64,000 nucleotides of DNA from Thermococcus sp. MV5 (lineage in GTDB: Archaea; Methanobacteriota_B; Thermococci; Thermococcales; Thermococcaceae). The stretch covers positions 186,001 to 250,000 of the forward strand of contig NZ_SNUE01000005.1 of the NCBI RefSeq assembly GCF_012027425.1. Reading direction: 5' to 3'. The first letter of the stretch is position 1, and each line of letters begins with the position of its first letter. This document shows, piece after piece, positions 632 to 45,036 of the stretch. The position numbers and the translations under genes are program-made. A model generated the notes under the pieces. That model saw nothing but the letters and a program-made list of their open reading frames with translations, searched no databases and had not been told where the DNA came from.

Positions 632-3493
632 TTATGTGAAGAGTTCAACTGGAGTGAAACCTCCTCTTGCCTTTTTGACCTTCAGCTTCATGTTGAAACT
701 ATTGATAATTGTTCCATCTTTTTCTGCCCATAGACCGGCCGGTATGACCAAGGTCTCACCATTAAGATCTTCTCTTGGTTTTCCTATAACTACATAAGCA
801 CTACTTTTGGGAATGCCTTTAACCCCGGCCTTTAGGAGGCCAACCTCATTGACGCCTTCGTGTAGAATAAGTGTTGGAACGGTAAGTGGCTCAGCGGGTG
901 CTTCAAGTATTGCGACTTCATAGTTCTCCTCCACAAGTTCCTTATCTTTTAGGAGTATCTTGAGGACAGGGAACTTTTTGATGTCTGCCTTTAGAAGCAC
1001 CTTTTTGGCCTTTATGATGTCTTCAAGTGTTGCTGTTGAAATGCCCTCTTTAACAAATGCCCCAAGTTCGATGTTTCTCTTCTCTGCAAACTGCTTAAAG
1101 AACGTAATCTCCTCGTTTGTAACTTCGGGGGTGAGGATTAGAGCAAAATTATTCTCATCTATGAACTTTTTAGCTTCTTCCCAGCTCACTGGCTTGCCGT
1201 TGAGGAGTGGTTGAGTTAGCCCTTCGGCCCAAGGCTTCTCAAATCGGCAGATGTCACACAAATGTCCATTGTTCCATGAGGGGAGTTTTGATGATGCCCT
1301 CACGAGCATGTCCTCATACACTTCAATGTTCATCTCACAAGCTAAGCCACAGCCGTTGCACACCGTTGCCACCGGCGTGGTTTTCCATGGACCGGGCTTA
1401 ACAAATGGAAGCTTTTCGCTGATAGCTCCAGTCGGACAAACATCTATCATGTCACCAATAAATTGACCATCCATGTCCGAAAGCTTCATGCCCACCGGAG
1501 GTGAAATCATGGTCTTAAAGCCTCTAAAAGTATAGTCCAGAATGCCTTCGCCAACCACTTCTTGGGTTAAATTAACGCATCTCCCGCACAAAACACACTT
1601 GTTGTTGTCCAAGACAACGCTTGGATGGGTTTCATCGAGCTCAAAGCGGTTCTGTTCGCCAATGAATGCATATTGCTTGGCATCATAGAGCGTTGCATAC
1701 TCCCTGAGCTTACACCTAAAGACCTCCATACATCCACAGGACATGCATCTCTGAGCCTCTTTAAGCACTTCCTCTTCGCTCAGTATGAGTTCAACTTCCT
1801 CAAAGTTCTTAACTCTCTCTTTAGCATCTTTAAGCTTGGCCTTAACCCTTGGAATCCGCTCCACGTGTGCGTAATCCTCTTCACTAACATCTTTCCAGTG
1901 GTTGTATGGTTTTAAGTCGAAGAGTACTCTGTACAAGTCCTCATCGCCCACAATCTCCATTATGTGCTTTGATGGCTCCAAAAGAGCTTCTCTGGCCTTT
2001 TCGAGCTTACCTTTGAGGTAGAGGTCTATCATTATTGCCGCTCTTCTTCCAGTGGCTATGGATTCTATCACTGTTGAAGGGCCCAAAACGAGATCGCCAC
2101 CCGCAAAGACACCTTCAATGCTTGTTTGAAGCGTTACATCGTCCACCAAAGCTTTGCCTCTCTTTGCCTCAATTCCCAAACTCTTCAAGAACTCCTCATC
2201 GCAGTACTGTCCGATGGCTAAAATCACATTGTCCGCCTCAACCGTAAAGTTTGAGCCTTCTATTGGTATAGGTCTTCTCCTTCCGCTTGCATCAGGTTCT
2301 CCAAGCTCCATTTTAATTAGCTCTACCTTCTCGACTTTTCTTTCCCCCAGTATCCTGACTGGATTTGTGAGGAACATGAATCTAACGCCCTCTTCCTCGG
2401 CCTCTTCCACCTCGCGCTCGTTGGCGGGCATCTCTTCCCTTGAACGCCTGTAAACGATAGTAACTTCGGCACCAAGTCTTAGAGCTGTTCTTGCCACGTC
2501 CATGGCAGTATTTCCGCCACCTACGACTATAACCCTCTTTCCGAGCTCAACCTTCTCGCCCTTGTTGACCTTTCTAAGGAACTCTATGCCGTGCATGACT
2601 CCCTCCAAATCTTCGCCTTCAATGCCCATCTTTCTGCTCTTCCAAGCTCCAACACCCAAAAAGACCGCATCATATTTTTCTCTAAGCTCCTCCAATGTGA
2701 CGTCTTTACCAAGGGCACAGCTGGTCTTGACCTCTATGCCAGTGCCTATTACCGTGGCTATGTCTTTATCCAAAACATCTCTTGGAAGCCTGTAAGGAGG
2801 AATTCCATAGCGCATCATTCCTCCAAGCTTAGGCATAGCCTCAAAGATAGTCACATCATGTCCCATTGTCCTCAAATAGTAGGCACAGGCTAATCCGGCT
2901 GGTCCTCCCCCAACAACAGCCACTTTCTTACCCGTTGAAGGCGGGATTTCTGGCATCCACGGCCCGTGCTCCAAGTCATAATCTGCTGCATACCTCTTTA
3001 GCTGCCTTATCGCGAGGGGTTCTTCAACCAGATTGCGCCTGCACTCATCCTCACAAAAAGCGGGACAAACCCTTCCAAGGACTGCGGGGAGGATATACTT
3101 TTCTTTCATGAGCTTCACAGCTTCATGGTACTTACCCATAGCTATCAAAGCTAAATAACCTTGAACATCACTGTGGGCAGGACATCCCTTCTGGCAGGGT
3201 CCGATACAATCGCCATAGTGGTCGGAGAGCATAAGTTCAAGAGCGGTTCTCCGCATCTCGACGATTGTGTCGTTAAGTGTTTCAATGGCGAGACCTTCCA
3301 TAGGCTTAAGAGTACATGAAGTTGTCAAACCTCTGGGTGTTTCGACAAGGCAGAGGCGGCAAGAGCCATAGGGTTCTATTTCATCGTCGTAACACATACC
3401 CGGAATGTGCTCGCCTTTTTCCCTAAGAATCTTAAGGAGGGTTTTATCATCAGGAACTTCCATCTCCTTGCCGTTAATTATAACTTTCACCAT
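632..3493 (-). CDS. NuoG-like iron-sulfur protein fused to a GltD-type NAD(P)H:acceptor flavoprotein
   Basis: A 953-residue multidomain redox protein. In order: a plant-type [2Fe-2S] ferredoxin domain (residues 1-90, cysteines in GMCYDDE, GSCRLC and TSC); a GltD-like module (about 95-550) with its own Fe-S cysteines, an FAD site VVGGGPAGLACAYYL and an NADPH site VVGGGNTAMDVA; further cysteine clusters (CMSCGC, CVLCGRC, CPTGA); then a C-terminal stub of the molybdopterin-oxidoreductase Fe4S4 domain (CNGCGLAC ... CDIC) with no catalytic molybdenum domain. The ATG at 3493 was chosen over the GTG at 3502 because GGGTGA lies five bases upstream and the gene then begins one base after nuoF stops. 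It is the last gene of a nuoE-nuoF-nuoG-like operon. It probably channels electrons between NAD(P)H and ferredoxin. The physiological partner is not visible. Confidence 0.88.
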   Translation of the reverse strand: MVKVIINGKEMEVPDDKTLLKILREKGEHIPGMCYDDEIEPYGSCRLCLVETPRGLTTSCTLKPMEGLAIETLNDTIVEMRRTALELMLSDHYGDCIGPCQKGCPAHSDVQGYLALIAMGKYHEAVKLMKEKYILPAVLGRVCPAFCEDECRRNLVEEPLAIRQLKRYAADYDLEHGPWMPEIPPSTGKKVAVVGGGPAGLACAYYLRTMGHDVTIFEAMPKLGGMMRYGIPPYRLPRDVLDKDIATVIGTGIEVKTSCALGKDVTLEELREKYDAVFLGVGAWKSRKMGIEGEDLEGVMHGIEFLRKVNKGEKVELGKRVIVVGGGNTAMDVARTALRLGAEVTIVYRRSREEMPANEREVEEAEEEGVRFMFLTNPVRILGERKVEKVELIKMELGEPDASGRRRPIPIEGSNFTVEADNVILAIGQYCDEEFLKSLGIEAKRGKALVDDVTLQTSIEGVFAGGDLVLGPSTVIESIATGRRAAIMIDLYLKGKLEKAREALLEPSKHIMEIVGDEDLYRVLFDLKPYNHWKDVSEEDYAHVERIPRVKAKLKDAKERVKNFEEVELILSEEEVLKEAQRCMSCGCMEVFRCKLREYATLYDAKQYAFIGEQNRFELDETHPSVVLDNNKCVLCGRCVNLTQEVVGEGILDYTFRGFKTMISPPVGMKLSDMDGQFIGDMIDVCPTGAISEKLPFVKPGPWKTTPVATVCNGCGLACEMNIEVYEDMLVRASSKLPSWNNGHLCDICRFEKPWAEGLTQPLLNGKPVSWEEAKKFIDENNFALILTPEVTNEEITFFKQFAEKRNIELGAFVKEGISTATLEDIIKAKKVLLKADIKKFPVLKILLKDKELVEENYEVAILEAPAEPLTVPTLILHEGVNEVGLLKAGVKGIPKSSAYVVIGKPREDLNGETLVIPAGLWAEKDGTIINSFNMKLKVKKARGGFTPVELFT

Positions 3494-3494
3494 T

Positions 3495-5297
3495 TTAATC
3501 ACCCTTATGAGCGTCCATTATTTTTATGGCGTTGAATCTACAAACATCATAGCAAGTTCCGCATTTTATGCACTCTGCCTGATTTATCACGTGAGGCTTC
3601 CCTCTTTCGCCGCTTATGGCTTTAGTTGGACACATTATTGCACATGCTGTACATCCCGTACAGTTTTCCGCGATTATGACGTACTTTATAAGAGGCTTAC
3701 AGACTTTGGCAGGACACATCTTTTTCTCAACATGGGCTAAGTATTCATCTTTGAAGTATCTAAGAGTTGTTAAAACCGGATTTGGAGCGGTTTGTCCAAG
3801 ACCACAGAGGGAGCCAGTCTTCACCTGAGGTGCGAGCTTTTCGAGCACTTCTATATCCTCAAGGGTCCCTTCTCCATTGGTTATCTTGTCCAGAATTTCC
3901 CACATTCTCTTAGTCCCTAAGCGGCAGAAAGTACACTTTCCGCACGATTCCTTGACGGTGAAGTCTAGGAAAAACTTGGCGACATCGACCATACAGGTAT
4001 CTTCGTCCATAACGACCATTCCACCGCTCCCCATGATAGCACCTGTGGCGTTGACGGACTCGTAATCAACGGGCGTGTCAAATAGATATTCTGGAATACA
4101 ACCCCCAGAAGGACCTCCTAATTGAACTGCCTTAATCTTTTTGCCAGTTTTAGTTCCACCACCAATCTCATAGAGTATTTCCCTCAAAGTCATTCCCATT
4201 GGAACCTCGACGTTTCCACCCCTAGCTATTTTTCCGGCCAAAGCGAAGACCTTAGTACCCTTACTCTTTTCGGTTCCAAGCTTTGCATACTCTTCCCAGC
4301 CGTGCTTTATTATCCACGGAACGTTTGCCCACGTCTCAACGTTATTTATGTTTGTGGGCTTGCCCCAAAGACCTTTTTGAGCTGGATAAGGCGGCCTTGG
4401 CCTAGGCATTCCTCTCTTACCTTCAATGGAAGCTATCAAAGCCGTCTCTTCTCCACAAACGAAAGCTCCAGCACCTTCCTTAATCTTTATATCAAAGGAG
4501 AAGCCGCTTCCTAGTATATTTTCCCCTAAAAAGCCTCTCTCCTTTGCCTGCTTTAGGGCTATCTTAAGCCTTCTTATTGCAAGGGGATACTCAGCTCTCA
4601 CATAGATGAAGCCTTTGGTAGCCCCTATAGCATAGGCTCCAATTAACATTCCCTCTATGACACGATGGGGATCGCCTTCGAGGACGTTCCTATCCATGAA
4701 TGCTCCGGGGTCTCCTTCATCAGCATTACAAATTATGTATTTTTCATCCCCTTTTGCCTGCCTTGCAAACTTCCATTTAAGCCCCGTTGGGAAGCCAGCT
4801 CCTCCTCTTCCTCTAAGGCCAGACTTCGTGATTACATCGATTATCTCCTCGGGCTTCATTTGGAGAGCCTTTTTGAGGGCCTCATAGCCCCCAGCTTGAA
4901 TGTACTCATCAATGTTCTCAGGGTCTATATAACCACTGTTTTCTAGAACTATCTTTTTCTGCTTTGCGAAGTAGCCATCGATATCCCATGTTTTTCTTAT
5001 GCCGTTTTCATACCAGTCCTTCTTCACTATCCATTCTTCGATAGGTTTCCCATTAATAACGTGTTCATCAATAATTTTCAACACTTTTTTGGGGGTAACG
5101 TGGCCGTAGGTGATGATTTCATTCTCGGTTATTATATCTACGAGTGGCTCTCTATAACACATTCCAACGCAGCCAACGACTTTTAATGGGATATCAATGC
5201 CTCTCTCTTTCAGCTCCTTCTTAATGGCCTCATAAGTTTCTTTAGCACCCGCTGCTATTCCACAGGAGTTCATTCCAACAGCTATGGCTTTAATCAT
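3495..5297 (-). CDS. NuoF-like NADH-binding flavoprotein subunit with C-terminal ferredoxin domain
   Basis: A 600-residue homologue of complex I 51-kDa/NuoF and of HydB of bifurcating hydrogenases. Residues 1-100 form a thioredoxin-like ferredoxin domain (CGIAAG, CVGMCYRE). The core has the FMN/NADH signature GRGGAGFPTGLKW and the GEETALIASIEG segment. The [4Fe-4S] motif CGKCTFC plus a downstream CGLG completes the NuoF fold. The last 60 residues add a two-cluster ferredoxin (CTGCTACAIMCP, CIKCGTCYDVC), as in soluble hydrogenase and formate dehydrogenase partners. The ATG at 5297 follows GGTGAGCTAG and overlaps the end of the NuoE gene by eight bases, so translation is coupled. It would oxidise or reduce NAD(H) at FMN. 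Confidence 0.93.
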   Translation of the reverse strand: MIKAIAVGMNSCGIAAGAKETYEAIKKELKERGIDIPLKVVGCVGMCYREPLVDIITENEIITYGHVTPKKVLKIIDEHVINGKPIEEWIVKKDWYENGIRKTWDIDGYFAKQKKIVLENSGYIDPENIDEYIQAGGYEALKKALQMKPEEIIDVITKSGLRGRGGAGFPTGLKWKFARQAKGDEKYIICNADEGDPGAFMDRNVLEGDPHRVIEGMLIGAYAIGATKGFIYVRAEYPLAIRRLKIALKQAKERGFLGENILGSGFSFDIKIKEGAGAFVCGEETALIASIEGKRGMPRPRPPYPAQKGLWGKPTNINNVETWANVPWIIKHGWEEYAKLGTEKSKGTKVFALAGKIARGGNVEVPMGMTLREILYEIGGGTKTGKKIKAVQLGGPSGGCIPEYLFDTPVDYESVNATGAIMGSGGMVVMDEDTCMVDVAKFFLDFTVKESCGKCTFCRLGTKRMWEILDKITNGEGTLEDIEVLEKLAPQVKTGSLCGLGQTAPNPVLTTLRYFKDEYLAHVEKKMCPAKVCKPLIKYVIIAENCTGCTACAIMCPTKAISGERGKPHVINQAECIKCGTCYDVCRFNAIKIMDAHKGD

Positions 5298-8529: not shown

Positions 8530-9773
8530 GCATTGAAATAGATGCATTCACAAGGGTTGAAGGGAACGGAGGAGCAGAAGTCATCATTGAAAATGGGGAA
8601 GTAAAAGACGTCAAAGTTAAAATATTTGAGGGGCCGAGGTTCTTTGAACTTCTTACCCTAGGAAGATACTACTGGGATGTGCCAGATTTGGAAGCAAGAA
8701 TATGTGCGATTTGTTATCTTTCACATTCCGTTGCTTCAGTGCTTGGCATAGAGAGGGCTTTTGGCGTCAAGGTTTCAAAAGAGATAGAACTTTTGAGGGA
8801 ACTTGGACTTCTTGGGGAGCTTTTGGAGAGTAATGCCCTGCATCTATACTTACTAGTAGCTCCTGATCTTTTTGGATATCCTGATGCAATACGAATGGCA
8901 AGTAAACATGGAGAAATTGTCAAAGAAGGGCTGGCAATTAAGGCCTTTGGTAATTATATCCGGGAAATCATTGGTGGAAGAGAGATACATGGCATTAACA
9001 TCAAGCCAGGGGGATTTGGAAGATATCCTACTGTAGAGGAATTAGAAAGAATGGAAAGGCAAAGTGAGGCCTTATTAAGGCTTGCAAGAAGAGGAGTGGG
9101 AATATTCGCTGGTCAAGAAACACTCGGGGCTAAACCCGTGCATTATGTTGTAGTCAATGGGTATCTGTATGGAGATAAGCTCATAGCATCAGATAAAGAC
9201 ACCTTTGATTACTTTGAACGCATTGAGGAAGAGGCCTTGTCGTATAGTTTTGCAAAGCAGAGTAGGTACAAAGGCGAAATTTTCATGGTGGGTGCACTCC
9301 CAAGAGTCCTACTAAAGTCAGAAATGTTGACTCCAACGGCAAAACACCTCTATGAAGAGTATAAAGAGAAACTTGCTCAGGGTTATGTAAGCTTAAATAA
9401 CCTGGCTCAGGCAATTGAACTTGTTTATGCACTGGAAAGAACCAAGGAGATAACTAGAGAACTCTTGGACAAAGGTATCAATGGGGAAAACGTACCCATT
9501 GAGCCTCAAGAAGGAGAGGGGATTGGCTACGTTGAAGCACCTAGGGGGGTTCTGATACACCATTATAAAATTAATGAAGATGGAAACATTGCATATTCAA
9601 ATATTATTACTCCTACGGCATTTAACCACGCTATAATGGAGCTCAGCCTCTATGAAGAAGCCAAAAGAAGGTATGGAACTTCAGATGAAAGTGCATTTTT
9701 GCAGAAATTGGAGGAAACAGTAAGAGCTTTTGACCCATGTATTTCCTGTTCTGTGCACGTTGTTAGACTTTAG
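8523..9773 (+). CDS. shyA: sulfhydrogenase alpha subunit ([NiFe] hydrogenase large subunit)
   Basis: Catalytic large subunit with the [NiFe] centre. The N-terminal motif RICAICYLSH and the C-terminal motif DPCISCSVH supply the four cysteine ligands. After the last His only VVRL remains, so there is at most a very short tail for maturation proteolysis, as in Pyrococcus group 3b enzymes. Its 416 residues fit SH II better than SH I; this is a length-based inference. It overlaps shyD by seven bases and ends the operon. No maturation (hyp) genes are in the window. The enzyme evolves or consumes H2 with NAD(P)(H) and may reduce polysulfide. Confidence 0.95.
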   Translation: MVSIEIDAFTRVEGNGGAEVIIENGEVKDVKVKIFEGPRFFELLTLGRYYWDVPDLEARICAICYLSHSVASVLGIERAFGVKVSKEIELLRELGLLGELLESNALHLYLLVAPDLFGYPDAIRMASKHGEIVKEGLAIKAFGNYIREIIGGREIHGINIKPGGFGRYPTVEELERMERQSEALLRLARRGVGIFAGQETLGAKPVHYVVVNGYLYGDKLIASDKDTFDYFERIEEEALSYSFAKQSRYKGEIFMVGALPRVLLKSEMLTPTAKHLYEEYKEKLAQGYVSLNNLAQAIELVYALERTKEITRELLDKGINGENVPIEPQEGEGIGYVEAPRGVLIHHYKINEDGNIAYSNIITPTAFNHAIMELSLYEEAKRRYGTSDESAFLQKLEETVRAFDPCISCSVHVVRL

Positions 9774-35780: not shown

Positions 35781-36353
35781 TCAAATCCTTTCAGCAATTT
35801 TAATTGTTATTGTGCTTTCGATTAGAGCAGCAATGAATATTAAGAGTATTGAGATGCCAACAAGCTTAAAGAATTCTTTGGCGTCCTCTTTACTAATTGT
35901 TTCTTCTTTTTTACCTAAAGCAAAGCGTAGAAGTTCGTAGGGGATTTTAAAGCCAGCAGTTCCAGCGATAATTAAACCAGGGATTTCGAAAATACCGTGG
36001 GGGAGAATTAGAAGCAAGAATGTTCTAAAGCTTCCTAGATATAAATAGGCATGAGCCATGACACCTAAAATTATTCCATTGAAAACTATATTCAGGATAG
36101 TGAGACCTCCCAATGTTAGAACACCTCCAAAAGATAGAAGTATGATCACCTTAACATTATTGATGAAGATAGTATGAGGGGAAATCACTGGAAACACGCT
36201 TTTGAACTCATATTTTGAGGGAAGTCGATAATTTGTGTTCATTTGAAGGGTATTGTAATGTTCCAAGAAATTAAAGTTTAATCCAATAATAATGCCTAAA
36301 CAGAATAATAAAAACGAAAAGATTGTAAGCCATCGTAGTGATTTGTTTATCAA
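35781..36353 (-). CDS. DUF95/SpoIIM membrane protein of a circular-bacteriocin-like cluster
   Basis: A polytopic membrane protein with about five helices (residues about 8-27, 70-115, 120-150, 165-185). The family signature LPHGIFEIPGLIIAGTAGFKI is present. DUF95 proteins are regular members of circular bacteriocin clusters, where they are needed for secretion or immunity, though they also occur elsewhere. I start at TTG 36353 because GGGAGG stands eight bases upstream; the longer GTG 36410 reading would overlap the upstream gene and has no ribosome site. It is third in a minus-strand operon behind a two-helix protein and a small hydrophobic peptide. Confidence 0.82.
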   Translation of the reverse strand: MINKSLRWLTIFSFLLFCLGIIIGLNFNFLEHYNTLQMNTNYRLPSKYEFKSVFPVISPHTIFINNVKVIILLSFGGVLTLGGLTILNIVFNGIILGVMAHAYLYLGSFRTFLLLILPHGIFEIPGLIIAGTAGFKIPYELLRFALGKKEETISKEDAKEFFKLVGISILLIFIAALIESTITIKIAERI

Positions 36354-36381: not shown

Positions 36382-36555
36382 TTATTTGCTAGTTTGAATA
36401 AAAAGTACACTGAGAATGATGATCATCCCTCCAATGACAACCCACGGGGTTATGTCCCAATTAGGGCTCTTTAAAATAGATAACCCTGCAAATAACCATA
36501 TGAGTCCCCCCACGATGCTCATTACCGACGTCCTAATTTTTTGATTAGAGTTCAT
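36382..36555 (-). CDS. 57-residue two-helix membrane protein, candidate immunity protein
   Basis: Short basic N-terminus (MNSNQKIRTS), then two transmembrane helices (about 11-30 and 36-52) joined by a short polar turn (KSPNWDIT). ATG 36555 follows an excellent GGAGGTGGATTA site; the longer 36582 reading does not. Immunity proteins of circular bacteriocins are of this kind: 50-60 residues, two helices, basic. The gene sits between the peptide gene (48 bases) and the DUF95 gene (28 bases). The assignment rests on size, topology and context only. Confidence 0.7.
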   Translation of the reverse strand: MNSNQKIRTSVMSIVGGLIWLFAGLSILKSPNWDITPWVVIGGMIIILSVLFIQTSK

Positions 36556-36603: not shown

Positions 36604-36858
36604 TTATGCAATTATGCCTACAGCTATCAATATATATCCTAATGTTTTCCCTGAAATTATCCCTGCCTCTTTTGCCCCAGTGGCTGCGGTACTCACCCCT
36701 GTAAGAATTGTAGCACCTGTAGTTATTGCTTTTGTTCCAATCCAACCAAGTCCATATGCTGCACCTAAGACTACTTGGGAGGGCATAATTACTGCTCCAC
36801 CAACTATCATTCCAAGAGTTACTAACACCAACCCTATCACCAGTGCCTTCCTCCACAC
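36604..36858 (-). CDS. candidate circular bacteriocin precursor peptide
   Basis: An 84-residue hydrophobic peptide. Residues about 1-28 look like a leader (MWRKALVIGLVLVTLGMIVGG...). The rest (about 55 residues) is Gly/Ala/Thr/Ile rich with only two Lys-type basic patches (GTKAITTGA, ATGAKEAG, SGKTLG) and no Cys, and it ends in hydrophobic YILIAVGIIA. This composition and length match cores of circular bacteriocins (58-70 residues, helical, head-to-tail joined). GTG 36858 has GGAGGTG six bases upstream; ATG 36873 (five residues longer) and GTG 36882 are alternatives. The leader cleavage site cannot be fixed from sequence. Confidence 0.68.
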   Translation of the reverse strand: MWRKALVIGLVLVTLGMIVGGAVIMPSQVVLGAAYGLGWIGTKAITTGATILTGVSTAATGAKEAGIISGKTLGYILIAVGIIA

Positions 36859-36903
36859 ATGGAGCACCTCCATGTTTTTCACTTACCCTTTGTTGCTCAT
36901 ATA

Positions 36904-36914
36904 CTATTTAAAAT
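36904..36914 (-). promoter_or_regulatory. TATA element of the peptide operon
   Basis: On the minus strand ATTTTAAATAG predicts transcription starting near 36880, giving a leader of roughly 20 bases that contains the GGAGGTG site for GTG 36858. This promoter is back-to-back with that of the exporter operon beginning at 37008. Confidence 0.6.
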
Positions 36915-37007
36915 TTTTGTTATATTTTATCATATTGAGTCATAATATACAACTATAAAGAGTAATATTTTTAAGCAAACGGATCACCCTCTAGTGAGGT
37001 GATGAGT

Positions 37008-37979
37008 ATGAAAGCCATCAATATAGCAATGAAGGATTTCGAAATAAGTATCAGAACAAAGAGGTTTCAAATAATAGGGTTGCTTTTTGTGATAGTGTCT
37101 TTAGGGATGATCTATAGCTCTAAGAGGCTTGGTATAAGTGTGAATTTATATAAAACACCTTTTCAAATGCTTTTCTTATCAAGCTTCTCAAATGCTTTCA
37201 ACTACTTAATATCATTATCAGGAATTCTTATTGGGGCAACAGCAATAAACGCAGAATTAGAAAGGGGCACTCTAAAGTTGATAGTCTCAAAGCCTGTGTA
37301 TAGGGATAGAGTGATCTTGGGTAAACTTTTGGGAGGGTTGTTAACTCTTAGCGTAATTCTATCATTGTTTTATGCTTTAACAGTGGCCTTTGCACTGCTC
37401 TTAGGAGTCCCAATAACTGTAAGTGACCTAGTGAGATTTTTAGTAACATTGCCCTTTAGCCTACTCTATGGATTAGTTTTTCTAAGCCTTGGATTACTTA
37501 TTTCATCATTTATTAGGAAGTCCAAAAACGCTATTATCCTTGCAATATTTACATTCCTCTTTTTCGGCTTTTTGCTTTCAATAATCGGTGGAGTAATAGG
37601 GTTTGTAGTGGCTGGTCTGCCTCCTCTTCCTAATATTCCAGAAAATGCTACAAATCTAAGTGAAGAGCAACTACAAGAATTGTTCCTCAAAGACCCAGCA
37701 TATCAAGTATGGCTGACTAAAATGACAACAACAGCTGAAAAAATCCTTTATGTCTCCCCTAACTATCACTATCAGGAAGTTATCAGAATACTCTTCGGGG
37801 GGAAGTCCCAAATTAGTGAAGTAGTTTCTGCTTTAGCTTATGAGGAGAGTGTTGTAGAGGATAGATCCATTAGTGAAAGTTTGAGTTTGGTCTGGCAAAA
37901 CATCTTGGTGTTGATAGTAATGTTTCTCTTGCCTTTTACGCCAGCTTATGCAAAATTCATGAAAGCTGATTTGGGGTGA
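37008..37979 (+). CDS. ABC-2 type permease 1
   Basis: A 323-residue membrane protein with an N-terminal cytoplasmic segment (AINIAMKDFEISIRTKRFQ) then six or more helices. The layout of ABC-2/NosY permeases is clear: RGTLKLIVSKPVYRDRVILGKLLG is the coupling-helix region after helix 2. A soluble extracellular insert of about 80 residues lies before the last helix. ATG 37008 has GGTGA five bases before it. It is the first gene of a four-gene plus-strand operon, divergent from the bacteriocin-like peptide. It is paralogous to the permease at 41077-42060. Confidence 0.88.
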   Translation: MKAINIAMKDFEISIRTKRFQIIGLLFVIVSLGMIYSSKRLGISVNLYKTPFQMLFLSSFSNAFNYLISLSGILIGATAINAELERGTLKLIVSKPVYRDRVILGKLLGGLLTLSVILSLFYALTVAFALLLGVPITVSDLVRFLVTLPFSLLYGLVFLSLGLLISSFIRKSKNAIILAIFTFLFFGFLLSIIGGVIGFVVAGLPPLPNIPENATNLSEEQLQELFLKDPAYQVWLTKMTTTAEKILYVSPNYHYQEVIRILFGGKSQISEVVSALAYEESVVEDRSISESLSLVWQNILVLIVMFLLPFTPAYAKFMKADLG

Positions 37980-37984
37980 TTTTT

Positions 37985-38902
37985 ATGTATGCTATTGAAA
38001 TTGAGGGTCTGATCAAGAAGTATAAAGAATTGGTAGCGGTTGATAATTTGACATTGAACATTGAAAAAGGGAGCATTTTTGGATTTTTGGGTCCTAACGG
38101 TGCAGGAAAGACTACTACAATATTGAGCATGTTGGGGTTGATAATCCCAGACAGTGGGAGCATAAGGATACTTGGAAGTGACATTTTTAAGGAACCAATT
38201 AAAGTCAAAGAAAAAGTTGGTTATCTTCCTGAGAACGCAACAGTCTATGGTGAACTTACCGCATGGCGCAATCTAGAGTTTTTTGCCAATTTCTACAACA
38301 TGAGCAGAGTCGAGAAGGAAAAACGTATAGAAGAGCTGCTCAAGTTAGTTGGTCTTTGGAATGTTCGTTACAGAAAGGCAAAAACGTTCTCAAAGGGCAT
38401 GAAACAGCGTTTGCTTTTGGCTCAGGCCCTAATAAATGACCCCGAAGTTTTAATACTCGATGAGCCAACGAGTGGCCTTGATCCCGAAGGGGCTCATCTC
38501 GTCAAAAGTATAGTGAAAGAGGAAGCGAAAAAGGGAAAGACTGTATTCTTCTCCTCTCACATACTTAGCGAAGTTGAAGAGCTAAGTAATAATGTTGGAA
38601 TCCTCGTAAGCGGGAAGCTTAGAGCAATGGGGACACTGGATGAAATAAAGAAACAGTTCATGGAACTCGAGGGCTATGAGATAAAAATAGAAGCCAAACA
38701 GGAGTTGCCTGAACTTGATCTTGACAGCATAGTGAGGATGGAAAAGATAAACGACAAGAAAGTGATAGTATTTGCCAGAGATGATATTAGAGATCAGATC
38801 TCGGATTATCTATCGAAGAGAGGGATAACCCTGATAAATCTTGAGATTGAGGAGCCAAGCTTGGAGGATGTTTTTCTCAAAACGATTTACAAGAAGGAGT
38901 GA
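37985..38902 (+). CDS. ABC transporter ATP-binding protein
   Basis: The 305-residue ATPase of the exporter. Walker A GPNGAGKTTT, the signature FSKGMKQRLLLAQ, Walker B VLILDEPTSGLDPEG and the switch His (FFSSHILSE) are complete. The 75-residue C-terminal domain is of the CcmA/NatA type that pairs with ABC-2 permeases. ATG 37985 has GGGGTGAT upstream; the frame is open back to 37976. It lies between permease 1 and the surface protein and energises export, plausibly of the peptide encoded divergently. Confidence 0.95.
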   Translation: MYAIEIEGLIKKYKELVAVDNLTLNIEKGSIFGFLGPNGAGKTTTILSMLGLIIPDSGSIRILGSDIFKEPIKVKEKVGYLPENATVYGELTAWRNLEFFANFYNMSRVEKEKRIEELLKLVGLWNVRYRKAKTFSKGMKQRLLLAQALINDPEVLILDEPTSGLDPEGAHLVKSIVKEEAKKGKTVFFSSHILSEVEELSNNVGILVSGKLRAMGTLDEIKKQFMELEGYEIKIEAKQELPELDLDSIVRMEKINDKKVIVFARDDIRDQISDYLSKRGITLINLEIEEPSLEDVFLKTIYKKE

Positions 38903-38907
38903 TGAAA

Positions 38908-41070
38908 ATGAAAAAGCTTACTTTTGTTTTGATATTATTTCTCTTGACCTTTATTCTTCCAGCAGCAGCTTCCTTGCCATGGATAACGGTGTTTGAGGGG
39001 AGACTACAAATTGGGGAAAGTTTAATTGTGGGAGATTATCAGATTAAGATAACTCAAGAGAAGTACACTCTAAAACCTTATGCAATAATTTATAGGAAGG
39101 GTAAGATTAGGAGTGTAGTAGAGCTTAATCGAACTTTTGAAATCGATAACATAAGGATAATGAGAGGTAGTTTTGATGAAAGGGGTATTTTTATAGTTCT
39201 TCAGTACAGGCCAAGCTTTCTTAAGGAAATAGGACCTCAAGAAGGCAATATTTTTAATATCGATGGGTACTCGATTTTGATAATTAACTCTACTGAAGAC
39301 GTACTTTCTCTAAAAATAAATGGAGCAGAAGTTACCATAAAGAAAAATTCTTCGAGAGTGTTTGATAAACTTGTCCTTGTATACAATAATGGAGTTCTAG
39401 ATATTTACTCTGCTAACATTCAAGTAAGGCATGAAAAAAGAGATAACTATGAGATTTATTATCCATTCAGGAGTTTGAAGGTAGACGCAGGAAGTAGAGT
39501 TGAGCTTTCTATTAACATTGTCAATGAGAATACTGACACTTCAGAGCTTAGTTTAAGGATACTCTCAAAGCCAGCAGACTGGGAAGTTGATTTCTTTGAT
39601 GAGACTAGCAATTACAGGATCAATGACCTTATTCTTAATCCTGGAGGCTCTATCACGGTTAATCTCCTAATAAATATCCCAGAGACAGCAAAAGGGACCC
39701 ATAGTATTATTTTTGCTGTAGGAGATAAAGTAGGGAGGATAGATTTAAATGTAACTGAAGAGCCGAATGGGAGAATAGGCCTTAAGGTGCCGCTTTTATC
39801 AATAGAGGCTGAGGCTGGCGAGAAAATAATCTTTCCAATACAGTTTACACCATATGTTAATGAAAAGGTAATTGAGCTTCAAATAAAAGAGGTGCCCCCG
39901 GAATGGAATGCGTACTTCTCCCTAAATGGTCAAAGGATTAGATCATTTCTCTTGGATAGGAGTGAGGTTGTTAATCTTGTTGTGGAGAGTCCAAGAAATG
40001 CCGAATTGGGTGAGCATAAAATAAAGTTTTCCGTTAATGAAATGGAGAAAAGTGTGAGCGTCTTCATCTACAAAACACATAAGGAAGAACCTGCAAAGTT
40101 GATTTTGAGCATAAATGACGAAGAAGGAAGGCCTGTACCAAAAGCCAAAGTACAAATTGGAAATAAGACTTACATCGCAGATATAAATGGGGTTTTAGAG
40201 GTGCAACTTCCAAAGGGAGATTATACAATAATCGTAAGCAAAGAGGGTTATGAAACCAAAGAGGAAAGGATAATGCTTGGAGATGGAGAGGAAAAAGATG
40301 AGAGAATTACCCTGAAGAGGCTTCTATACTACTTCGCTGTAGATATGGAGAGCAATCATTTAACAACAGGCTTTGACTTTCAACCTGTTTATGAGATTAG
40401 AATTGAGAATCTAGGTAAGGAGAATGATGAGTATACTTTAAGCATTGATGGACTTCCCTCTGGTTGGGCTGTGGGCTTTCTCAGGGATGTACAGAGCAAT
40501 TTTGAAATTAAAAGTATAGAAGTTGATAGTGAGGAAGCTAAGAGTGTCTATTTAAGAATAATCCCTTCGTTTAATGCACAGCCAGGGGTTTACAATGTTA
40601 CATTGAAGATAAGAAGCACCTCTGGAAACGAAATAGAGAAGAAAATTGAGGTGGAAGTTATAGGAAGATATGAACTTCATGTTGAAGCTGCAAACTACCT
40701 CGTATCCCTAAAACCTGACGAAGAGAAGACTATTCCCATAACCCTCAGAAACTTCGGAAACACCGTGACTAACGTTAACATTGAGGTGAATGCTCCACAA
40801 GGGTGGGAGGTTAAAGTAGAACCTCAAAAGTTGGCTAAGATAGAGGGAAAAGGTGTTGAGACAATAACCATTCGTATAAAACCATCAAAAGCAACACCTG
40901 CTGGGGAATATCGGATAAATATAGATGTAAAATCTGACCAAACAGAATCACGAATCCAGCTTACTGCTAGAGTGAGGCAAAGCTCAAGTTTGGCTTACCT
41001 TGGAGTGATAATCTTAGTGGTGGCATTTGCAACAGTTATACTAATGATGCGCCGTGTAGGAAGGAGGTAA
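38908..41070 (+). CDS. large surface-anchored protein with NEW3/Ig-like repeats
   Basis: A 720-residue exported protein. It has a signal peptide (1-20), then alternating beta-sandwich domains of the NPCBM-associated NEW3 (COG1470) type, seen as repeated NPGGSITVNLLINIPETAKGTHSI-like and PPEWN/PSGWAV/PQGWEV phrases. A carboxypeptidase-regulatory-like domain lies around 405-460 (VPKAKVQIGNKTY ... LPKGDYTIIVSKEGYE). A single C-terminal helix (LGVIILVVAFATVILMM) with RRVGRR anchors it. It overlaps no gene but sits between ATPase and permease 2. It may hold the exporter partner outside the cell; its role is unproven. Confidence 0.85.
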   Translation: MKKLTFVLILFLLTFILPAAASLPWITVFEGRLQIGESLIVGDYQIKITQEKYTLKPYAIIYRKGKIRSVVELNRTFEIDNIRIMRGSFDERGIFIVLQYRPSFLKEIGPQEGNIFNIDGYSILIINSTEDVLSLKINGAEVTIKKNSSRVFDKLVLVYNNGVLDIYSANIQVRHEKRDNYEIYYPFRSLKVDAGSRVELSINIVNENTDTSELSLRILSKPADWEVDFFDETSNYRINDLILNPGGSITVNLLINIPETAKGTHSIIFAVGDKVGRIDLNVTEEPNGRIGLKVPLLSIEAEAGEKIIFPIQFTPYVNEKVIELQIKEVPPEWNAYFSLNGQRIRSFLLDRSEVVNLVVESPRNAELGEHKIKFSVNEMEKSVSVFIYKTHKEEPAKLILSINDEEGRPVPKAKVQIGNKTYIADINGVLEVQLPKGDYTIIVSKEGYETKEERIMLGDGEEKDERITLKRLLYYFAVDMESNHLTTGFDFQPVYEIRIENLGKENDEYTLSIDGLPSGWAVGFLRDVQSNFEIKSIEVDSEEAKSVYLRIIPSFNAQPGVYNVTLKIRSTSGNEIEKKIEVEVIGRYELHVEAANYLVSLKPDEEKTIPITLRNFGNTVTNVNIEVNAPQGWEVKVEPQKLAKIEGKGVETITIRIKPSKATPAGEYRINIDVKSDQTESRIQLTARVRQSSSLAYLGVIILVVAFATVILMMRRVGRR

Positions 41071-41076
41071 CGATAA

Positions 41077-42060
41077 ATGAAGGAATTCAACATAGCATTC
41101 AAGGAGTTCTCCTCATCTATAAGGAGTAAGAGATTCATAAGCTTGCTCGCTTTCTATCTCTTCATAATGCTCTTCTTCAATTATGCTATTAAAGATGAAC
41201 TCGTAAATAGAGCGGGGCAGATAGGCGTAAGTTACACTTCCTTTCCTTTATCTGGGGTAGAGGGCATCATAATGGCGACCCCCTTATCAATTTCCATAAC
41301 TGGGAATTTAATGATACTCCTCATTTTCGGGGCGATAATAGGAATAGTCCTTGGAGCTGACACAATAAACAAGGAAATTGAAGAGGGGACGGTTAAAGTG
41401 TTAATGAGCCATCCAATTTACAGGGATCAAGTTATAAATGGAAAATTCATTGGAAACAGCATGGCATTGTTCTCAATAGTCATGATAGGGCATGTCTTTT
41501 CAATAGCTTACCTCCTGTTACTTGGAATACCTCTCGATATCACCTCAATTCTAAGGGCTCTAATAGCGGCTATTTTCACTCTAATGTACATGATGACATT
41601 TCTAAGCATCGGTATTATGTTATCAACGCTCTTGAAAAAGCCTGAAACTGCAATGCTATTGGCAATAGCCCTTGCAATATTTCTGACTTTAATATATCCC
41701 TTCATAGTTGATATTGCACTCGATAAAATTGTGGGAGAAGAGCCTTATTGTCCTTCCCCAATTTATATGGTGGAAAAAGAACGGCATATTCATGAAAATC
41801 CTCTCAATCTATGCCCCGCAATAGCGGAATGGATGGACAAGAGGAAGTTGTGGAAAAATAGATTGTTTCTTTTGAATCCAACCCATCACTATGGACAGCT
41901 TATAATAAGTGCCTTTGCTGGGGATGAAGCTACTCAAGACTATCTTCCGTTGGGAGAATCCCTTTCAATAGGCTTCAACAATTTTGCAATGCTTTTAGTG
42001 GAGCATCTTTTGCCTTTTACAGTTGCGTATGTGCGATTTATGACCAGTGATCTCAGGTGA
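41077..42060 (+). CDS. ABC-2 type permease 2
   Basis: A 327-residue permease resembling the one at 37008 (same EFNIAFKEFSSSIRSKRF opening, EEGTVKVLMSHPIYRDQVINGKFIG coupling segment and a closing LLPFTVAYVRFMTSDL, against LLPFTPAYAKFMKADL in permease 1). The two probably form a heterodimer with the shared ATPase. ATG 41077 follows GGAGGTAACGATAA. An extracellular insert contains two cysteines (EEPYCPSP, LNLCPAI). It ends the exporter operon and is convergent with rtcB. Confidence 0.88.
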   Translation: MKEFNIAFKEFSSSIRSKRFISLLAFYLFIMLFFNYAIKDELVNRAGQIGVSYTSFPLSGVEGIIMATPLSISITGNLMILLIFGAIIGIVLGADTINKEIEEGTVKVLMSHPIYRDQVINGKFIGNSMALFSIVMIGHVFSIAYLLLLGIPLDITSILRALIAAIFTLMYMMTFLSIGIMLSTLLKKPETAMLLAIALAIFLTLIYPFIVDIALDKIVGEEPYCPSPIYMVEKERHIHENPLNLCPAIAEWMDKRKLWKNRLFLLNPTHHYGQLIISAFAGDEATQDYLPLGESLSIGFNNFAMLLVEHLLPFTVAYVRFMTSDLR

Positions 42061-42093: not shown

Positions 42094-44988
42094 TCAGCCT
42101 TTGGCAACTCCAATGGGTCTCATCCTTGCAACAAGATTGGCTATTCCTGCTTCGTGTACAACTCTAACGACGTTATCAACATTCTTGTAAGCTCCTGGTG
42201 CCTCCTCGGCTACAACCCTCATGCTGGCTGCCCTAATGTATATTCCCTTCTGCATGAGCTCATTTTTGAGTCTATCTCCTCTAAACTGTCTCGTTGCAGC
42301 ATGTCTGCTCAAAACTCTCCCCGCACCGTGGCATGTACTTCCAAATGTTTCTCTCATTGCGCCCTCAGCACCTGCCAATACATAGCTTGCTGTACCCATG
42401 GAGCCGGGAATTAATACTGGTTGTCCAACATCACGATATGTTTTGGGAATTGCTTCATGTCCAGCGGGGAATGCTCTTGTGGCACCCTTTCTGTGGACTA
42501 CGACTCTAATCTTCCTTCCATTAACTTCGTGCTCTTCCACCTTCGCTATATTGTGGGCTACATCGTAGACTATGTGCATTCCCAAATCTTCTGCCTTTTG
42601 TTTAAAGACCTCTTCAAAGCTCTCTCTTACCCAGTGAGTAATCATTTGTCTATTTGCCCAAGCAAAGTTTGCTGCTGCCTTCATAGCACTAAAGTACCTT
42701 TGTCCTTCTTCGGTTTGGAATGGAACACTAACAAGTTCTCTATCGGGCCATGGGACGTTATACTTTCTGTTTGCTTTTTCCATAATTCTCAGGTAGTCGC
42801 TGGCCACCTGATGCCCAAGACCTCTTGATCCTGTATGTACCATTACTACGATTTGGCCCTCAAAAAGCCCATATGTTTTGGCGATTTTTTCATTAAAGAC
42901 CTTGTCGACAACTTGGATTTCTAAAAAGTGATTTCCACTTCCGAGTGATCCTAATTGGGGAGCTCCCCGTTGTTTTGCTTTTTGACTAACAGCGTTTGGA
43001 TTCGCTCCTTCCATTCTTCCTCCTTCTTCTAAGTGCTCTAGGTCATCTTTCCATCCATAACCATTATCTACAGCCCATTTTGCTCCGTCAGCTAGTACAT
43101 CATCCAATTGAGTCCAGTGAAGTCTGATCCTTCCCTTGCTTCCAAGCCCACTTGGGACGTTTTTGAATAGAGTATCAATGAGCTGTTTAATCTTTGGTCT
43201 CACTTCTTTCTCCCTTAAATTGGTTCTAATAAGTCTGACGCCGCAGTTGTGAACTACGACTCCATTTGCTATGAAGTTATGGGCCTCATGGTAGACACCG
43301 ATGTCGTAGAACTTTGTATAATTGGGCTTCACGTTCTCGACTTTTACAACCTTCTCCGCTACAAAACCACCTGTGTAGCCTCTCTCTTTCATGAACTCAT
43401 CGAAGGTTGGGAAGTCTTTTGGAACCCTTGGTTCTCTCTTTTGGTTGGTCTTATTGTAGATTGTCCTCTCTACAAAACGTTTGTTTACAAGGTCTTTAAC
43501 GGCTTCATGGGTAAATTTAACACTTCCAGTTTCTTTGTATATTCTTTTTATAGTCTCCATGACCATTTTACGTTCTTTTTTAATTCTTTCCTTGAGCTGG
43601 AGATAGGCATAGGCAATTAATCCCTTTGCTTTCTTTTCGAGATCATATTCATAGTTTATCTTTCCAAGGAATTTTCTGATATTTTCCTCTCCAACTATTG
43701 ACAATCTGTAGGCAACACTATCCTTAGACCTGATTTCATATAGCGTCGTTTTTATCCCAAATTCTGCAAGAAGTTTTGCAACGTCCCCAAGGAAGTCAAT
43801 GAGATTTTCTTCAAGTTCCTGAACTTTGGCTTGAGTAAAGTTTATTGGAAGTGGTGTGTTTCCTTTGAATCCTACTATACTACCATCCGCCGCAAAGAGT
43901 CCTGCCAAGAAATTCCTTTTTATCCAGAGAGGAGCTTCCATTATCCATTTAGGTATACGGTATGGTGTTTTAGCTTTCTTTCCTCTGGGCATTCCCAACT
44001 TTTCCATGAGACATGCAAAGCTTCTCGAAGTGACTCTCAGTTCTGTTGATATGCTCTTGCCCTGATAGGTGCCGTTTATAGTTTCAATGTGATAACCTCT
44101 CTCGCGAACATAAATATTGGAGTTTACACCAAGCTTTTCCAGATCCCTCTGGAGCTCTTTGAGTGTTTCTTCCTTTCCATAGAATGATAGAGTAATTCTT
44201 CCGCCCTGTTTCCCTAGGTGACCATCACCGAATGCGAAGCCTAAAATTCTGGCTATAGTGCCGACTTTTGGATCATTCCAGTAGAGAGGAATTAGTCCCC
44301 TTTCGCGAAGATATGAAATTACCTGTGGATCTTCTCCATCAAATGCTTCCTCTCCAAGGATAGTCCCTTTCTTTTCTTCGAACTCTACTCCCTCAAAGGG
44401 ATAAACAATGACAAAATCATTCTTCTTAATGTTTTTGAGATAAACATAGCCTTCGGGAGTAAGAACAGGGTGGTCTATGCTGCCTTCGATTATTCTCCCG
44501 CTCTCAGTGGTTATTCTCACTGCCATCTCGCCTTCCTCAATCTCTCTCTCTGCGATAAAGGATACTTGTGATGAGTCATTGTGACCTTCGTCAATATTGT
44601 AGACTTTAATCCCTTGGAGCTTAAACTTTGCGGGCATTTCTTCAATATTGAGCCAATAACCATGTTCAGTTAGAACTTTTGAGCCTGGAGCGAGGCAATT
44701 CACATCATATCCAACGCCTCCAGGGCTTATCACACCCTCTTTTACATCAAAAGCAGCTACACCGCCTATTGGAAAACCATATCCTTGGTGGCCATCGGGC
44801 ATTACGATGGAATATTTATAGATTCCGGGAAGCATGGCCACATTCGTGGCCTGTTCTAAAGTCTTGTCTTGACGCATTTTTTGAAGTAAAGTATCGTCAG
44901 CATAAACTCTTCCAGGAACTCTCATTCTTCTATCAAACTTGGGTATTTCCCACCTTATCTTATCCAATCTCTTCAGGGGTATCTCCAT
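42094..44988 (-). CDS. rtcB: RNA-splicing ligase RtcB containing an intein
   Basis: RtcB joins tRNA halves and other RNAs with 2',3'-cyclic phosphate and 5'-OH ends, using GTP and Mn2+. The precursor is 964 residues. Removing the 484-residue intein gives 480 residues, normal for Pyrococcus-type RtcB. The extein has the metal Cys ([14 protein letters not shown]), [17 protein letters not shown] with the metal His, and the GMP-accepting His in CHGAGR with the GTP-contact [12 protein letters not shown] 44988 is preceded by GAGGTGAGGAG; the GTG at 44997 is rejected. Archease, which activates RtcB, is encoded 1.4 kb upstream. Confidence 0.97.
43246..44697 (-). mobile_element. RtcB intein immediately before the metal-binding cysteine
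   Basis: A 484-residue LAGLIDADG intein. It begins CLAPGSKVL and ends GVVVHN, before extein Cys. Block B is SIDHPV with the His present. Endonuclease motifs are GFAFGDGHL and [10 protein letters not shown], so homing may be active. The +1 residue is the catalytic Mn-binding Cys of RtcB, so the ligase cannot work before splicing. Pyrococcus horikoshii RtcB has an intein at the same kind of site. Confidence 0.95.
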
Positions 44989-45036
44989 TCTCCTCACCTC
45001 ACTATTAAATAACTCTCAAAACTTTAAAAGATTGTG

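Follow-up and report, generated by a model that had tools for sequence, protein, structure and literature searches.

Circular bacteriocins are represented by the models TIGR03651/PF09221 (uberolysin, circularin A and AS-48-like peptides) and PF12173 (gassericin A-like peptides). Their published cores have 58–70 aa, GRAVY values of 0.54–1.06 and net charges of −2 to +6, and SpoIIM was present in all described clusters (PMC6131525; PMC8659200). The cassette analyzed here resembled these systems in its leader followed by a hydrophobic core (58–70 aa in circular bacteriocins), its small hydrophobic immunity-type protein, its SpoIIM/DUF95 protein and, in some cases, several precursors per cluster. 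It differed from them in lacking any sequence match and a dedicated ABC ATPase, in its constant leader and hypervariable core, and in being an archaeal three-gene cassette in which the two halves of SpoIIM evolve differently. The constant N-terminal export part, the variable C-terminal toxin-type part and the matching immunity-type gene of polymorphic toxin systems were also found in the cassette family, and orphan immunity genes and cassette exchange were further points of likeness. In contrast to those systems, which use large multidomain proteins, the cassette encodes a peptide of ~85–110 residues, carries no enzymatic toxin domain and has a SpoIIM partner. Archaeocins (halocins and sulfolobicins) are secreted archaeal antimicrobial peptides with a leader. 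To our knowledge, they have no link to SpoIIM, and the cassette differed from them in having no sequence family match. The VARTIG module of Thermococcales (PMC8416519) is a set of hypervariable, conflict-type loci in the same taxonomic order, with a constant N-terminal region and a variable rest, but it encodes a large Ig-domain surface protein, has no SpoIIM and comprises different genes.

The window, which is the whole stretch of 64,000 nucleotides analyzed from Thermococcus sp. MV5, contained a precursor peptide gene of 84 codons with a GTG start (36604..36858, −), recognized by ORF reading and by its homologues and translated as VWRKALVIGLVLVTLGMIVGGAVIMPSQVVLGAAYGLGWIGTKAITTGATILTGVSTAATGAKEAGIISGKTLGYILIAVGIIA. 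The Shine-Dalgarno sequence GGAGGTG (36865..36871, −) was read 6 nt before the GTG at 36858. A TATA-like element (36903..36916, −), a putative promoter element, was conserved in the alignment upstream of the first cassettes at other loci. Homologues carried an ATG at the codon of the window GTG, followed by W-R/K-K-A-L, and this confirmed GTG 36858 as the true start. The original prediction had described a good GGAGGTG site, a basic start with a hydrophobic leader, and a cysteine-free core rich in Gly and Ala. All of this was borne out: the translation has a basic start (RK) and continues into a hydrophobic leader, it contains no Cys, and Gly and Ala account for 34% of the core.

The window protein and then an alignment of 20 relatives served as queries for a search of 94 Thermococcaceae genomes. 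Strong leader matches (E<1e-8) occurred in 17 of these genomes, belonging to five genera, and nine leader columns were invariant (M1, W2, K4, A5, L6, G9, L12, G16, and G21). Thus, the ORF was not a chance reading frame. The precursor copies, intact or broken, numbered ~35. No leader relatives outside Thermococcaceae were found in a class-wide search, and none of the viral contigs searched contained a relative. Among the family homologues the leader was nearly invariant over 22 residues (MWRKALALGLVLMAIGVVVGGA), ending with VGGA (36793..36858, −, in the window). The mean aa identity was 78% over residues 1–22 vs. 30% over the hypervariable core (24% for shuffled cores), and the leader/core boundary was therefore conserved. 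The homologue alignment that had been suggested for locating this boundary placed it after VGGA. Because the leader ends at residue 22, the core in the window (36607..36792, −), with a net charge of +2 and a GRAVY of 1.11, has about 62 residues, and the earlier estimate of ~55 has to be corrected.

No clear homologue of the window core was found in the 94 genomes. Core lengths in the family ranged from 51 to 88 and hydrophobicity from −0.27 to 1.16. Among 27 peptides, the ten C-terminal positions contained one charged residue in total, and the final residue was Leu or Ala in 22 of the peptides. Weak matches to the leader profile came from larger secreted proteins of Thermococcus, at their N-termini (e.g., MWKKSVALLFGLMLIATGMAFSDVSA and WKRALAFALVVLFFGMTLGGASA), and for this reason the leader looks like a Thermococcus Sec signal peptide.

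The precursor gene was followed by a gene for a basic membrane protein of 57 aa with two hydrophobic stretches (36382..36555, −; Shine-Dalgarno sequence AAAGGAGGTG), a putative immunity protein. Partners of this kind had 57–137 aa and hardly any extra domain, and partner-type genes were also found as orphans in arrays, near other cassettes. Core similarity and small-membrane-protein similarity were strongly correlated among 26 cassettes (23 in the first version of the set), with r = 0.85 for all pairs and r = 0.81 for cross-genus pairs only (0/5000 permutations in each case); this evidence comes from the family cassettes, the window core itself being without a clear homologue. Cassettes sharing one locus had mostly unrelated cores and partners. 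Across genera, KAEVGLVFAKDYL-type cores were paired with F13-type partners and SNLTYR-type cores with F28-type partners. Toxin-immunity pairs would be expected to co-vary in this way, and matched ligand-receptor pairs could do the same. Together with the small, hydrophobic and cationic sequence of the partner, the co-variation suggests a protective role. As a separate observation, the partner at one locus (L033, 9540–9740) repeated a 32-residue amphipathic segment of its precursor (9201–9524), the stretches beginning KYHHYMGLYRQAL and KYHEYMELYRQAL (0/2000 shuffles). This putative immunity protein looks as if it had arisen by duplication or mimicry of the precursor segment.

The third gene encoded a SpoIIM/DUF95 membrane protein (35781..36353, −; PF01944, E 7e-29), with a likely TTG start at 36353 after the Shine-Dalgarno sequence GGGAGGA. 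The gene order of precursor, small membrane protein(s) and SpoIIM was found again at other loci. Cassette-type SpoIIM (E<1e-26) was detected in 19 genomes, comprising all 17 genomes with the leader and two with broken pieces only; one further, more distant SpoIIM was present in nearly every one of the 94 Thermococcaceae genomes. On another contig (L029), the window's own genome carried an array of five cassettes. Several cassettes were broken by frameshifts or stops. No dedicated peptidase or ABC ATPase was found in the cassette. In several cassettes from the window's genus (L029, from 10487 and from 13311 onwards; also L036, L041, L044, and L045), SpoIIM was immediately followed by an F7-family ATPase of 423–429 aa, which is possibly a passenger or a helper of the cassette.

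In the five-cassette array of the window's genome, the leader DNA was 79–97% identical, whereas the core DNA was 52–58% identical, which equaled the background. By correlation analysis, the N-terminal part of SpoIIM, before the motif PHGIFEI (36003..36353, −), tracked the core across the family (Mantel r = 0.42, 0/10000), while the part from PHGIFEI on (35784..36002, −) was nearly constant (mean similarity 0.85) and independent of the core (r = −0.02). With the leader and the C-terminal part of SpoIIM constant and the N-terminal part varying with the core, the cassette thus consists of a variable middle between two constant arms. Since the core tracked the N-terminal and not the C-terminal part, the core, the immunity gene and the N-terminal part of SpoIIM appear to be exchanged as one unit.

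A divergent ABC-2 transporter operon (permease, ATPase, NEW3-domain protein, and permease; 36999..42060, +) adjoined the cassette at its insertion site. Its third gene occurred in 61 of the 94 genomes, mostly without cassettes, and the operon was therefore treated as a neighbor; it is probably not part of the cassette system, and its candidacy as an obligatory exporter was rejected on the same grounds. Different cassettes adjoined the same ABC operon at loci of other genera (L031, L034, and L037). In genome G080, a close relative ~92–95% identical on both flanks, all that remained was the promoter region, ~13 codons of the leader and a 40-bp fragment with a match to SpoIIM; in G076 the flanks aligned and the cassette did not. 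This indicated that the window site gains and loses cassettes and that the copy in G080 is a deleted remnant. Beyond the operon, the window encoded an RtcB-like protein of 967 aa (42094–44997) with a LAGLIDADG-like motif, compared with 479 aa at L031 and L037 and 937 aa at L034. An intein is probably inserted in the window protein, and in that of L034 too.

The ORF had originally been taken for a circular bacteriocin precursor. The leader/core boundary, the SpoIIM gene, the immunity-like partner, and the length and charge of the core agreed with that claim, but family homology, which the controls did show, was not found. Neither the window precursor nor any other core of the family matched TIGR03651, PF09221, or PF12173. 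True uberolysin-type members scored above the model cut-off, and one Geobacillus gassericin-like precursor remained below it, so the reach of these models is limited. Searches of Pfam, NCBIfam and PDB sequences with the window precursor and 20 relatives returned nothing meaningful, and when the cores were aligned locally to known circular precursors, scores were mostly no better than with shuffled sequence; in the best case for the window core (Priestia), 43–54 of 1000 shuffles scored as high. As to the bundle of four to five helices that had been proposed as a check, a fold that is saposin-like in circular bacteriocins, AlphaFold models were of low confidence (pLDDT 58 and 54; ~44–54 in the window core and 54 overall for an RWHKTGD-type core), and Foldseek found no PDB fold match for them (best E 3.5). 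Four annotated circular bacteriocin genes lay beside a bacterial SpoIIM that aligned to the cassette profile with 34% identity. In the SpoIIM tree, in which branches were long and several of the housekeeping rows were badly read, the cassette SpoIIM showed no specific affinity for the SpoIIMs of circular bacteriocins over the housekeeping ones. Filing the cassette as a member of the circular bacteriocins is thus not justified, and that it works like one is plausible.

Two other loci were noted during these comparisons. Plasmid pMETHO01 of Methanomethylovorans hollandica (L125) encoded two near-identical hydrophobic peptides of 66 aa (2670–2870 and 3268–3468), which had no Pfam or NCBIfam match, with a SpoIIM downstream that was close to the cassette SpoIIM (3749–4318; 124 bits to the cassette profile) and with ABC permeases and a YIP1 protein in the vicinity; it is a candidate circular-bacteriocin-like cluster in a methanogen. 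Plasmid pLDW-3 of Geobacillus lituanicus (L128, 1242–1508 and 3896–4390) carried an unannotated gassericin-like precursor of 88 aa (PF12173 E 0.054, below the cut-off), accompanied by an HExxH-type (M48-like) peptidase and a protein resembling SpoIIM. A transposase interrupts what is probably a cluster for a circular bacteriocin.

Judging from comparative sequence evidence, the ORF probably specifies the precursor of a bacteriocin-like peptide, an archaeocin that is secreted and acts on membranes, encoded in a polymorphic three-gene cassette of Thermococcaceae with cognate immunity. A circular and a linear form of the peptide are sub-cases of this explanation, and the confidence given to them overlaps with that given to the whole. 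In the circular form, the leader would be removed, the 62-residue core would be joined from Ala84 to about Val23 as a bundle of four to five helices, and SpoIIM would act in export with an ABC ATPase. The presence of SpoIIM in the cassettes points this way, as do the length and net charge of the window core, which lie within the published ranges (its GRAVY is just above the maximum of 1.06), the uncharged C-termini with Leu or Ala last, and the existence of circular precursors with long hydrophobic leaders in Listeria. Besides the missing sequence match, it is opposed by core lengths and hydrophobicity in the family that spread more widely than those of circular bacteriocins, by a constant leader with a variable core, the reverse of the groups in PMC8659200, by a low-confidence structure prediction that lends it no support, and by the lack of an ABC ATPase and of a specific kinship of SpoIIM. 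We rate this form, and cyclization of the core with it, at somewhat below an even chance. Core lengths as variable as 51–88 would be easier to reconcile with a linear, Sec-secreted pore-forming peptide that has an ordinary signal peptide and an uncyclized core, with SpoIIM serving immunity or membrane insertion. The match of the leader profile to large secreted proteins is in line with this, and the A at −1 and G at −3 of the leader suit signal peptidase I. However, a linear peptide leaves unexplained the constant association of SpoIIM with the precursor and the co-variation of the SpoIIM N-terminal part with the core, and we hold it to be a tentative possibility.

Peptide-receptor systems also show matched pairs and rapid diversification, so the cassette could instead encode no weapon but a diversifying surface or signaling peptide, for self-recognition or quorum sensing, with the small membrane protein as its matched receptor. 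However, the partners are short and nearly free of additional domains, and like immunity genes they are also present as orphans; no kinase or regulator was linked to them, and SpoIIM is tied to bacteriocins. Such a role is unlikely. An ordinary small membrane protein without leader processing would agree with the hydrophobicity of the precursor throughout and with the two helices in its AlphaFold model (residues 3–22 and 65–83, the second at low confidence), but hardly with the abrupt change from constant to variable sequence at residue 22, seen in every member, or with the signal-peptide-like leader, and this we consider very improbable.

If the ORF encodes a bacteriocin-like precursor, the constant leader would direct it into a Sec-type export route and would be removed near the junction of VGGA and V. 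The Gly-rich hydrophobic core, perhaps ligated head to tail, may then enter and permeabilize the membranes of competing archaea, and the 57-aa membrane protein, judging from the co-variation in the family, would shield the producer from its own core. SpoIIM may act in export or maturation, its variable N-terminal part meeting the peptide and its constant C-terminal part contacting the common machinery. The sequence pattern of constant and variable regions was directly visible, and recombination between the promoter-leader arm and the SpoIIM C-terminal arm would explain how the core, the immunity gene and the N-terminal part of SpoIIM are swapped as a block. We speculate, with reservation, that these cassettes form a new class of archaeal circular bacteriocins, in which such blocks are interchangeable between constant arms and arranged in tandem arrays, and core and export specificity are swapped together. 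No earlier description of the cassette was found in the part of the literature that was searched, and an earlier report may exist.

Few peptide weapons are known from hyperthermophilic archaea, and the cassette points to a little-known archaeal weapon system. Peptides made by hyperthermophiles would also be of interest for their stability. Through its two-part SpoIIM, the cassette gives access to the role of SpoIIM/DUF95 in the maturation and export of circular bacteriocins, as contact with the peptide is probably made by the half that co-varies with it. Given the candidate immunity genes and the natural presence or absence of cassettes between close relatives, producer-target tests would be possible in the genetically tractable Thermococcales.
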